Shown here in pieces: positions 3,514-50,373 of a DNA stretch of 64,000 nucleotides (position 1 is its first letter; each line of letters opens with the position of its first letter). This DNA is from Coriobacteriia bacterium (lineage in GTDB: Bacteria > Actinomycetota > Coriobacteriia > Coriobacteriales > Eggerthellaceae). Below the pieces are notes generated by a model. It made no database searches. It worked only from the letters and a program-made list of their open reading frames with translations, and was not told the origin of the DNA. The translations under genes and the position numbers were made by a program. The DNA lies in contig JAUNNF010000007.1 in NCBI GenBank assembly GCA_030537355.1, forward strand, positions 1 through 64,000. The letters are read 5' to 3'.

Positions 3514-4234
3514 GTTTATAGCCTCCTAGAGATTCAAATATAATAGACAATATAACGTTTATCATATAGTAAGTGCTCTTCAATGAGCTAATACTGCTCT
3601 TTCCAGATAATCTTTCTTTCATTTTGGCTGGTACTTCACATATATTGAAATTTAGTTTTAATAATCTAGTTGTTGAAACTGGTTCTGGATATTCAATTGG
3701 ATAGTTATTGCTAAGTGTTGCAATTGTTCTTTTATTCATTGCTCTATATCCACTTGTTGTGTCATAAATCTTTGTTTTGGTGAATAGTTTTATAAAAAAT
3801 GAAATTAGTTTTATTCCTGCTCTTCTTGCCTTTGAACTTTTGAAATTATCTGTTGTTTGTTCTATAAATCTAGAACCTATAACCATATCGAAGTTTTTGT
3901 TAATAATAGGGTTAATAAGCTCATTAATGCTGTTAATGTCATGTTGTCCATCGCCATCAAATTGAATTGCTATGTCATAATTATTACGATTTGCGTATTT
4001 TAGTCCTGCTTGAACAGCTGATCCAATACCTAGATTTTTATTAAGTTTAAGATGTTCAATCTTGTTTTTTTGTAAAACTTTTTCAGTATTATCAGTTGAG
4101 CCGTCATTAACAACAATTAAATCAAAATTTGATTTGTGTGTTTGGTTGTATTGATATATTGAATTACAGGTTTCAACAATACTTTTTTCTTCATTAAAAG
4201 CTGGTATTATAAAAATAATTTTATTATTTATCAT
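3503..4234 (-). CDS. Polyprenyl-phosphate glycosyltransferase, DPM-synthase-like GT2
   Basis: A 243-aa GT2 protein. Visible motifs are PAFNEE at the start, VVNDGSTDNT near residue 40, QFDGDGQHD near residue 92 (the DxD-like metal site of dolichol-phosphate mannosyltransferases) and VIGSRF after it. Members load a sugar onto a polyprenyl phosphate carrier. It is the first gene of the minus-strand surface-polysaccharide operon and is paired with DUF2304. There is no Shine-Dalgarno before the ATG. Instead TATAAT ends seven bases upstream, so the transcript is probably leaderless. Confidence 0.85.
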   Translation of the reverse strand: MINNKIIFIIPAFNEEKSIVETCNSIYQYNQTHKSNFDLIVVNDGSTDNTEKVLQKNKIEHLKLNKNLGIGSAVQAGLKYANRNNYDIAIQFDGDGQHDINSINELINPIINKNFDMVIGSRFIEQTTDNFKSSKARRAGIKLISFFIKLFTKTKIYDTTSGYRAMNKRTIATLSNNYPIEYPEPVSTTRLLKLNFNICEVPAKMKERLSGKSSISSLKSTYYMINVILSIIFESLGGYKHEY

Positions 4235-10779: not shown

Positions 10780-11730
10780 ATGTTAATTTATTTTTACATA
10801 ATACTTATGTGTGTATCTGCGCTAATTTTAGGTTTATTTTTTTCTAAAATTATTCTTGTTCGTAAGAACAAAATAAGAGCGCACAGTATTCTAAAACAAA
10901 AAGCTGGAATAAATGGGGATATATTAGAAAAAAACTTTGCTTGTGATTCGCTTGCATTAAAAATATTAGGTTACTTAGTTAAAATTTCATATAGTCAAAC
11001 CTATGCAACTAACAAAACAAGCTTTACAGGTCGTTTTATAACAACTACTAAATTAAAAAAGAAGATTAAAGATTTGTCTTATATGGCGAATATGCCTGCA
11101 TCTTTTAACAATAAATCTTATCGTGAAAGCCAATTTAGACTATCAGCTATATTGTCTTTATGTGGTTTCGTTATTGGTTTAGTATTTTCTAATTTACTCG
11201 GGTTGATTTTATTTGTAGTAGGATTAATCATGGGTGTTTTTTTGCCTAGTTGGGCAATGAATAAAGAAAAAAATGCTAGATCTGAACAATTAGAAAAAAA
11301 CCTTCCAGAAATGTTGGAAGTTGTTTCTTTAGGTCTTAGAAGTGGTCTAACATTTGATAGGTCACTTAATATTTATACTCAACATTTTGACAATGATTTT
11401 TCTTCGTCGTGTAAATTAGCTCAACAAAAATGGGAAAGTGGAGTAAAAACTAGAGAATTAGCATTGCGTGATTTAGCAGCAAGTTATGAAAGTTTTTTAT
11501 TTAGTCGTATTGTAGATAGTATTATTCGGTCAATTAGGTTTGGTTCTTCTTTAGTTGAGAGTTTAGAAGAGTCTTGTGTAGAAGCAAGAAATATTTATAA
11601 GTCAAATCAAGAAGCAAAAGTGGCAAAGGCTCCAGTAAAAATGATGATACCAACTGGAACATTAATATTGCCAGCAATGTTGCTTCTTGTATTAGGACCA
11701 GTATTGTTAAATCTTATAGGAGGTTTTTGA
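10780..11730 (+). CDS. tadC: Tad platform protein TadC
   Basis: A 316-aa membrane protein paralogous to TadB, with a T2SSF domain: LEKNLPEMLEVVSLGLRSGL near residues 170-189, SVDSIIRSIRFGSSL-type helices, and the end PTGTLILPAMLLLVLGP typical of TadC. N-terminal, central and C-terminal hydrophobic segments bracket the domain. It is the partner of TadB in the pilus platform. The start codon touches the tadB stop, as expected for a coupled pair. Confidence 0.9.
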   Translation: MLIYFYIILMCVSALILGLFFSKIILVRKNKIRAHSILKQKAGINGDILEKNFACDSLALKILGYLVKISYSQTYATNKTSFTGRFITTTKLKKKIKDLSYMANMPASFNNKSYRESQFRLSAILSLCGFVIGLVFSNLLGLILFVVGLIMGVFLPSWAMNKEKNARSEQLEKNLPEMLEVVSLGLRSGLTFDRSLNIYTQHFDNDFSSSCKLAQQKWESGVKTRELALRDLAASYESFLFSRIVDSIIRSIRFGSSLVESLEESCVEARNIYKSNQEAKVAKAPVKMMIPTGTLILPAMLLLVLGPVLLNLIGGF

Positions 11731-15863: not shown

Positions 15864-16158
15864 GTCAAGATGTTTTGATGATATGGAAATATGTTATGGA
15901 TGTATGCATAAGTTTACAGACAAAGAAGCAAAAAATGATTTGAGTTCTGAGCTTCTTCCAGAGTATTTTGAACTAGATTCATGTCCAATTATTGAAGAAA
16001 TTGACGAATTTTATGAAAGAAAAGAAGCTAAAGCTGAAGTTAAAAAAGATATAGAGCGTATAAAACCAAATCATGCAAAAGAAAAAATAAATAGAAAAGA
16101 AAGTATAGTTTTAAAGATTGAGATACCTACACAAATATTAAAAGATTCACTTAAATAG
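15841..16158 (+). CDS. Small zinc-ribbon protein
   Basis: A 105-aa protein. Its first 22 residues hold two CxxC pairs (CPEC and CYGC), a rubredoxin-knuckle zinc ribbon. The remainder is charged, Glu/Lys-rich, with no membrane segment, ending in a short beta-like stretch. It sits between DUF192 (23-bp overlap) and the adhesin (11-bp gap), so it is co-transcribed. It may be a regulator or scaffold. No homologue is recognised by eye. Confidence 0.65.
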   Translation: MKVCPECKSRCFDDMEICYGCMHKFTDKEAKNDLSSELLPEYFELDSCPIIEEIDEFYERKEAKAEVKKDIERIKPNHAKEKINRKESIVLKIEIPTQILKDSLK

Positions 16159-48256: not shown

Positions 48257-48573
48257 ATGGTCTGGGAACAACTCAAGGAAGATTTAATCGTAACAAATTT
48301 AGATGCTAAGTCTCAAGCTGATGTTTTGTGCGAGAGGCATTGTTCCAACTTTCTGAAATGGAAGACCAGCTTGTTGATGATCCATCACATTTAACCCACG
48401 TTGTTGAAGAGATAATGCTTGCTGACCCAAGTAATTGGCAAAAACATTACCATGGTAATGATCACGAACTTAAGCTCGTGGTTGACAAGAAGCTATCTCC
48501 TGATCCAAAAGAGCTTGTACTTCAAGGTATTTATGAGTATATGAGTGATTACGAGTATGCTACTTTTTGTTAA
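48257..48573 (+). pseudogene. Remnant: PTS IIA start fused out of frame to a GatZ/KbaZ tail
   Basis: A good GGAGG site and ATG at 48257 begin an N-terminus like PTS IIA domains (LIVTNLDAKSQADVL). That frame runs off into nonsense and stops at 48391-48393. From about 48328, in another frame, the sequence matches the C-terminal part of the non-catalytic subunit of tagatose-bisphosphate aldolase (GatZ/KbaZ): REALFQLSEMEDQLV, EEIMLADPSNWQKHYHG, then directly LVLQGIYEYMSDYEYATFC. About 50 residues normally found between those last two segments are missing. So an internal deletion joined pieces of a galactitol/tagatose-type operon. The family match is by eye. Confidence 0.6.
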
Positions 48574-49789
48574 TTTTTAATAGAATTGTACAAAGAATAA
48601 CAATAACTATACAAATTGCAATAAGTAAACAAAAAATTATTAAATACCCCATATCTGGGGTATTTTTATCGAGTATAGTTCCAAGAATATTATCAAAATA
48701 AATGTCTGGCGAAAAAACAATCATACTAGCTAGCCCTGAGGTTGTGCCTAGTACACCTTTTGGTAATTTAAGTTCGCTTAATGTAGAGAATTGAATTGCA
48801 TATATCATAGTAGAGAATATTGCGGGTAATATTGACACTATAGCTACTACAATAGGGCTTGTATTAAAACCTGTAATGATAAAAAGTATGGTAGAGGCTA
48901 TCATGCAAAGGCCAGCTACTCTGAACCATTTAAGCGTTGAGTGAAAAACTTTATCCGCGATGATTCCAGAAAAGATTGCTGCAAATATCATTATAAAATA
49001 AGTTCTAAATACACCCAGTGCTCCACTTACCTCATTGTTGAGTCCACATACTGTTGTCATAAAAGGAGTAAAGTAAGTGGTACAAGTAAACATCATATAA
49101 ATTAGCATCATAATAATTCCAGCAATCCATACTTTTTTATTTGTTAGAACTTGTTTTAGCTCAGCACGAGTAAATGATGTTTTTGAAACTTCTTTTAAAT
49201 TTCTTTCTTTAAACAAGAATAAAATAGCGAGTATAGCTATCAATACAAATCCTGCGACAGAAAATGTAACGCCTTTAAATCCAACTTGAGTAAAAGCAAA
49301 CATATTAGTGCTTGAAATTATTGTCCCAAATATTGCATTCGCAGCAAAATAAATTCCAAAACATCGGCCTTGCTCATTGTCCTCGCCTGCCATACCAATA
49401 GCTTTTACTAATGAATTCCAAAATACAAATGTTGTAGCAAAAGGCATTAATGCCCAAACTATTATGGCTATCCAATAAGGTACTGGGGTAACAAGTGTTA
49501 GAACTAGTGCAAATCCAAATATCAATACAAAAGCCCACAACATAGAAAGTAAAAGTGGTTTTTTTGCTCTAATTCTATCTGTAAGTATTCCTCCAGGAAT
49601 ATATAAGAACAACGAAACAATTCCATAAATTGTAAGTAGTAGGCCTACTTCTTGATTGTTAATATGGAGAGCTTCCATTAAAGGAATGTGAAAGACATAT
49701 CTAATATAAGGATATACATACATTACACCGCCAGCTAGCCCAAGGGCTATAAGTGTTATGTATTTTTTGAGATTTTGCACGCGCTGCAT
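48560..49789 (-). CDS. Major facilitator superfamily transporter
   Basis: A 409-aa protein with 12 predicted helices. The loop 2-3 motif GGILTDRIRAKKPLL matches MFS motif A, and the second half has GIIADKVFHSTLKW as its counterpart. Overall it resembles the oxalate/formate or sugar-phosphate antiporter-like MFS families, but the substrate cannot be named. Its 3' end overlaps the GatZ remnant by 14 bp. It has no ribosome site: TATTAT lies exactly six bases before ATG on the minus strand, so it is likely leaderless and shares its -10 with nadD. Confidence 0.85.
   Translation of the reverse strand: MQRVQNLKKYITLIALGLAGGVMYVYPYIRYVFHIPLMEALHINNQEVGLLLTIYGIVSLFLYIPGGILTDRIRAKKPLLLSMLWAFVLIFGFALVLTLVTPVPYWIAIIVWALMPFATTFVFWNSLVKAIGMAGEDNEQGRCFGIYFAANAIFGTIISSTNMFAFTQVGFKGVTFSVAGFVLIAILAILFLFKERNLKEVSKTSFTRAELKQVLTNKKVWIAGIIMMLIYMMFTCTTYFTPFMTTVCGLNNEVSGALGVFRTYFIMIFAAIFSGIIADKVFHSTLKWFRVAGLCMIASTILFIITGFNTSPIVVAIVSILPAIFSTMIYAIQFSTLSELKLPKGVLGTTSGLASMIVFSPDIYFDNILGTILDKNTPDMGYLIIFCLLIAICIVIVILCTILLKINKK
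48642..48667 (+). terminator. Terminator hairpin lying inside the MFS gene
   Basis: AAATACCCC (48642-48650) and GGGGTATTT (48657-48665) are a perfect 9-bp inverted repeat around ATATCT, ending in TTTTT on the plus strand. It would stop transcripts coming from the hypE-patB direction. It lies antisense to the last part of the MFS coding region, over codons for residues near TPDMGY. On the minus strand it is followed by TTTAATAATTTTTT, so it might also act there. Confidence 0.6.
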
Positions 49790-49794
49790 TATAC

Positions 49795-49801
49795 TATAAT
49801 A
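49795..49801. promoter_or_regulatory. Symmetric divergent -10 shared by the MFS gene and nadD
   Basis: TATAATA reads TATAAT on the plus strand (49795-49800) and TATTAT on the minus strand (49801-49796). Each -10 is exactly six bases from a start codon: ATG of nadD at 49807 and ATG of the MFS gene at 49789. Both transcripts should begin at their ATG, 18 bp apart. No -35 of quality is visible on either side. This is a compact bidirectional leaderless promoter. Confidence 0.6.
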
Positions 49802-49806
49802 GAGTT

Positions 49807-50373
49807 ATGAAAAGGAAGAAACTAGGAATTATGGGTGGTACTTTTGATCCCATTCATTTGGGTCATCTTCAATGTGCTGATGTTGTTCAAAAAAAATTCA
49901 ATTTAGAAAAAGTGTTGTTTATTCCGGCAGGTATTCCTAACTTCAAGCAAGATAAAAAATTAGCTTCGTCAAAAAATAGATTGGAAATGTGCAAATTGGC
50001 TATAGCGGATTTTGGAAATCCTACTTTCGATGTATCTGATACAGAGATTAATAGAAAAGGCGTTACTTATACTGTTGATACATTAAAAGAGTTTAGTGAG
50101 TACGACATTTATTTTATTACAGGCACAGATAGTGCTGCAACACTGGAGCAATGGCATAATTATGAAGAGATCTTAAAGCTTTGTACAGTAGTTGCTGTTA
50201 CTCGTAAAGGTGATGTTAAACATAAGTTGAATCCAAAAATTTTGTTGATAAAAGCAGATGTTATAGAAGTTTCTTCTACACAAATACGTAGCTTGTCAAA
50301 CATTAAAAATTATGTTACGCCTTCTGTCTATGAATACATAAAAGAGCATGAACTTTATAGTATAATTACCTAG
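49807..50373 (+). CDS. nadD: Nicotinate-nucleotide adenylyltransferase NadD
   Basis: A 188-aa nucleotidyltransferase. LGIMGGTFDPIHLGHLQCA gives the GxFxPxHxGH ATP-binding site near residues 10-20, FIPAGIPNFK follows, FITGTDSAATLEQWHNYEEI matches the NadD substrate region, and the end has VSSTQIRS (the ISSTxIR motif). It converts nicotinate mononucleotide to deamido-NAD. It is leaderless by position, directly divergent from the MFS gene. The usual rsfS/yqeK neighbours are absent here. Confidence 0.94.
   Translation: MKRKKLGIMGGTFDPIHLGHLQCADVVQKKFNLEKVLFIPAGIPNFKQDKKLASSKNRLEMCKLAIADFGNPTFDVSDTEINRKGVTYTVDTLKEFSEYDIYFITGTDSAATLEQWHNYEEILKLCTVVAVTRKGDVKHKLNPKILLIKADVIEVSSTQIRSLSNIKNYVTPSVYEYIKEHELYSIIT

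Follow-up and report, generated by a model that had tools for sequence, protein, structure and literature searches.

Can a single -10 box serve two divergent protein-coding genes if neither of them has a 5' untranslated region? The question is raised by a 17-bp gap in the window, the whole stretch of 64,000 nucleotides analysed here, between nadD and a gene for an MFS transporter (Table 1). Read directly from the window letters, positions 49787-49809 are CAT TATAC TATAATA GAGTT ATG, in which the MFS ATG (minus strand, 49789) and the nadD ATG (plus strand, 49807) flank TATACTATAATAGAGTT. It had been predicted that TATAATA (49795-49801) reads as a -10 on both strands, that it lies six bases from each ATG, that the two start codons are 18 bp apart and that neither gene has a Shine-Dalgarno (SD) sequence. 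The motif agrees letter for letter (TATAAT on the plus strand, TATTAT on the minus strand), both distances are confirmed, and no SD was found within 20 nt 5' of either start. The original prediction did not mention three further elements, namely a perfect TATAAT on the minus strand, a second possible start of the MFS gene (GTG 49780) and a TTGAGA-17-TATACT promoter on the plus strand. The explanation favoured here, with a probability of about 0.6, is that the gap is a minimal bidirectional promoter from which nadD and the MFS gene would be expressed as leaderless or nearly leaderless mRNAs.

Table 1. Features of the nadD/MFS locus and of other divergent pairs with close starts; PWM scores in brackets were obtained with the two local genes left out
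Feature	Position	Strand	Remarks
nadD, nicotinate-nucleotide adenylyltransferase	49807..50373	+	188 aa; NF000840, 195.7 bits against a cut-off of 150; Pfam PF01467
MFS transporter, substrate unassigned	48560..49789	-	409 aa; PF07690, E 2e-27
Candidate -10 TATAAT of nadD	49795..49800	+	ends 6 bases 5' of ATG; PWM 10.8 (10.3)
Candidate -10 TATTAT of the MFS gene	49796..49801	-	6 bases 5' of ATG; overlaps the nadD -10; PWM 6.5 (5.7)
Alternative -10 TATAAT	49788..49793	-	7 bases 5' of GTG 49780; PWM 10.1 (9.9)
Alternative promoter TTGAGA-17-TATACT	49767..49795	+	predicted start ~49802, leader ~5 nt; 10/12 consensus
GatZ/KbaZ-like ORF	48328..48573	+	81 aa; overlaps the 3' end of the MFS gene
tgt (-)/queH (+)	G000 C12 96046-96066 (L084 ~16046-16066)	-/+	starts 20 bp apart
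Ser/Thr kinase-like (-)/small HTH-like (+)	G000 C7 23782-23805 (L067 ~3782-3805)	-/+	starts 23 bp apart
RNA methyltransferase-like/sodium/glutamate symporter-like	G000 C18 75492-75506 (L050 ~11492-11506)		starts 14 bp apart; start sites doubtful

The flanking genes and the gap

Inspection of the nadD reading frame revealed ATG 49807 as its sole possible start, with no in-frame alternative upstream. The MFS frame can begin at ATG 49789, the first start of the ORF, or at GTG 49780; its matches in NCBIfam all fall far under the cut-off. The short ORF that overlaps its 3' end matches only positions 289-340 of GatZ/KbaZ (420) and looks like a gene remnant. When the 17 gap bases were shuffled, an exact TATAAT on the plus strand together with at least a 5/6 match on the minus strand, both at 6-7 bases from the start, occurred in 0.2% of cases. 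The two boxes are not independent, because any TATAATA carries TATTAT on the opposite strand.

Leaderless genes in the genome

Leaderless (TA-led) genes, in which a TANNNT precedes the start codon by about 12 bp, are common in Actinobacteria (PMC3160421). Their frequency in this genome was estimated from a sample of 1.17 of its 1.51 Mb, taken as stretches, in which 1,004 genes were called by a simple ORF and hexamer method. SD signals peak 5-7 bases before the ATG, and SD translation is therefore the main mode. A TA-led class is also present: a good -10 at 6-8 bases precedes 70 of the 367 SD-less ATG genes, against a mean of ~17 (13-22) at seven control offsets, and exact TATAAT is found 16, 10 and 6 times at 6, 7 and 8 bases before such ATGs, against ~0.7 per position elsewhere. 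The excess of ~50 genes, roughly 5% of all, look leaderless, and leaderless expression appears common enough to make a leaderless reading of the nadD/MFS gap credible. No clear excess of such -10s was seen before GTG (8/134 against ~5) or TTG starts (17/272 against ~12). Two short genes ~10 kb apart (G000 C4 55238 and 65214) have the same leaderless -10 and at least 45 identical upstream bases, which suggests a duplication.

Promoter strength and alternative starts

The local boxes were scored with a -10 profile (PWM) built from the genome's own leaderless set, the members of which have leave-one-out quartiles of 6.3, 8.4 and 10.1. The MFS TATTAT lies near the lower quartile of this set. The extended TGn motif, present in 27 of the 70 leaderless genes, is absent from both local -10s, and neither has a -35 at normal spacing. 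The idea that -35 elements drive leaderless promoters here was abandoned, as the genome's leaderless -10s show no excess of -35 matches on their upstream side.

Because its upstream neighbour is divergent, nadD must have a promoter at this place, and in the 300 bp upstream of it no further plus-strand site scores above 6.5, which leaves the shared box as the single strong -10 on that strand. One may nevertheless suppose that TTGAGA-17-TATACT drives nadD, giving it a ~5-nt leader that has no SD, and that the TATAAT box is secondary. The ideal spacing and the consensus match of this promoter speak for it, but TATACT obtains 1.8 with the genome's own profile, compared to 10.8 for TATAAT, one promoter of this kind was found where shuffles of the region give 1.6 by chance, and the lack of -35 enrichment mentioned above also weighs against it. 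We consider this arrangement unlikely.

On the minus strand, the -10 candidates are confined to the gap or its edge, and they fit different start codons of the MFS gene. If translation began at GTG 49780, transcription could be driven by the minus-strand TATAAT, the starts would lie 27 bp apart, and the two -10s would be adjacent instead of symmetric. This box, which overlaps the start codon ATG 49789, scores clearly higher than TATTAT, and the kinase/HTH pair of the same genome, described below, presents the same choice (TATAATGCAAAACATG). However, ATG 49789 comes first in the ORF and leaderless genes with GTG starts are not clearly enriched, so the GTG start is regarded as somewhat improbable. 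The N-termini of MFS homologues do not decide between the two codons.

A third possibility is that the gap expresses nadD only and that the MFS gene is transcribed from it weakly or not at all. TATTAT would then be an automatic by-product of TATAATA, which agrees with its low score. Against this, the MFS frame is intact and coding-like in composition, and the DNA upstream of the gene consists of the gap and nadD coding sequence, in the first 290 bp of which every minus-strand -10 score stays below 5; expression of nadD alone from the gap is held to be quite unlikely. All three alternatives place the promoter within or beside the 17-bp gap. That overlapping leaderless promoters operate here in some register is judged rather probable, and for the exact symmetric 18-bp version the chances appear about even.

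Conservation among relatives

The genus consists of this single genome, and the relatives found by rpoB at 72-74% identity belong to the Eggerthellaceae (Gordonibacter, Enteroscipio, Slackia and others). The genome has 1.5 Mb and a GC content of 34-35%, clearly below the 41-72% of the loci sampled from the relatives. Conservation of the 17-bp gap had been put forward as a check, and it was not borne out: across 35 nadD loci of relatives, this MFS gene never lies beside nadD, and neither the pair nor the gap is kept. At 34 of the 35 loci a large neighbour lies upstream on the same strand, mostly proA-like and in a few cases obg-like (identities as ProA, from the C-terminus, and ObgE are our reading), and the remaining locus has no large ORF there. 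The MFS relatives within the family are at most ~30% identical and are distant from nadD in the cases in which both genes were located. The contrary case, the same pair with a long gap, was not found among the relatives examined either. The arrangement and the gap are, judging from these loci, lineage-specific, and conservation neither supports nor refutes the promoter. Searches of the relatives for 18- and 20-bp double-leaderless patterns gave scattered matches, overall not clearly above a reversed-pattern control. Among the matches fetched, about one per genome, two convincing coding genes were present only at the site in the window; a match in G089, at first sight a relative, has by our reading only one side with a plausible gene (a kinase).

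Other divergent pairs with close starts

The sample contains 99 divergent gene pairs, and start distances below 30 bp include 14, 18, 20 and 29. A scan that allowed alternative starts and required both genes to be called returned, besides nadD/MFS, the queuosine genes tgt and queH, which start on either side of a TATTATA (CATCGTGGTATTATACACATTTATG), and a kinase/HTH pair (CATGTTTTGCATTATAATAGTTTATATG), the starts of which flank a perfect palindrome, ATTATAAT; these gene names are our reading of the translations. The occurrence of both pairs in this genome speaks for the explanation favoured for nadD/MFS. In relatives that have both tgt and queH in the locus, a further gene mostly separates the two, at a distance of 0.8-1.3 kb, and queH often has an SD (both among the matches listed). 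The pair was thus discarded as an example of a conserved short gap, which is probably derived here. At the methyltransferase-like/symporter-like pair, a palindrome, CAACATATGTTG, is found at one start codon.

Might zero-UTR bidirectional promoters be a recurring device of this genome, with nadD/MFS, tgt/queH and kinase/HTH as candidates? In such a device, the A-T pair of each start codon would double as the -18T of the opposite promoter, and occlusion of polymerase would be the only coupling between the paired genes. The proposal is possible, though we hold it to be doubtful. Leaderless starts are close to forced in pairs so near to each other because there is little room for two leadered promoters, and short gaps would be expected to recur in a compact, AT-rich genome.

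A proposed minimal promoter

In the favoured explanation, the 17-bp gap would be a minimal bidirectional promoter of the sigma-70/A type. RNA polymerase is proposed to recognise TATAATA in both orientations but to occupy only one of them at any moment, so that transcription in the two directions would be mutually exclusive. RNA would begin on, or a few bases from, the A of each ATG, and the nadD and MFS mRNAs would be translated leaderless or nearly so. As far as the original prediction of a symmetric leaderless pair is concerned, the genome-wide signal and the published register discussed below render it credible, and conservation adds nothing in its favour. Should the two starts prove to lie at the ATGs, the gap, with its 17 bp and without any UTR, would come close to the lower size limit of a promoter that serves two protein genes. 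No base of the box could then change without consequences for both of them, start codons and promoter elements would in part occupy identical base pairs, and compact genomes would be shown able to merge the signals of transcription and translation.

Comparison with known systems

Bidirectional sigma-70 promoters were described by Warman, Grainger and colleagues (PMC12825309, PMC10268837, citing Nat Microbiol 2021). The commonest type has starts 18 bp apart with reciprocal -7T/-11A, -18T and +1A (PMC10268837; PMC12825309), and both 18 and 23 bp are among the preferred start distances (PMC12825309). The nadD/MFS gap resembles this class in its pseudo-symmetric common -10 and, provided that both genes begin at their ATGs, in the spacing of its starts. 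With the ATGs taken as +1, the reciprocal -7T/-11A are present on both strands at 49796 (A) and 49800 (T), and +1A with -18T at 49789 (T) and 49807 (A). The latter match is partly automatic, because two ATGs 18 bp apart supply each other's -18T. With starts placed from sequence, the register matches that of the published 18-bp promoter. Unlike in that class, the putative +1 bases are here the A of each ATG, leaving no 5' UTR on either side.

The TA-led genes (PMC3160421) share with this locus the TANNNT about 12 bp upstream, the lack of an SD and a genome-wide signal; what differs is that two such genes are here divergent, with one TA signal between them. Divergent core promoters that overlap are also known from EcoRV CR/M (PMC5333194) and from M. 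tuberculosis lysG/lysE (PMC5648196), where the gap is 108 bp and one lysE transcript is leaderless (PMC5648196). Unlike the present pair, both of these systems carry regulators, and neither is reported with both transcripts leaderless from one box. No paper on two leaderless genes sharing one -10 was found in the literature searched, the coverage of which was incomplete. The nadD/MFS gap is best regarded as a probable zero-UTR member of an established class of promoters, in a genome that uses leaderless genes and whose compactness and AT-richness favour such an arrangement. Its ingredients, a bidirectional -10 and a leaderless start, are both known, and the combination proposed here is unusually compact.
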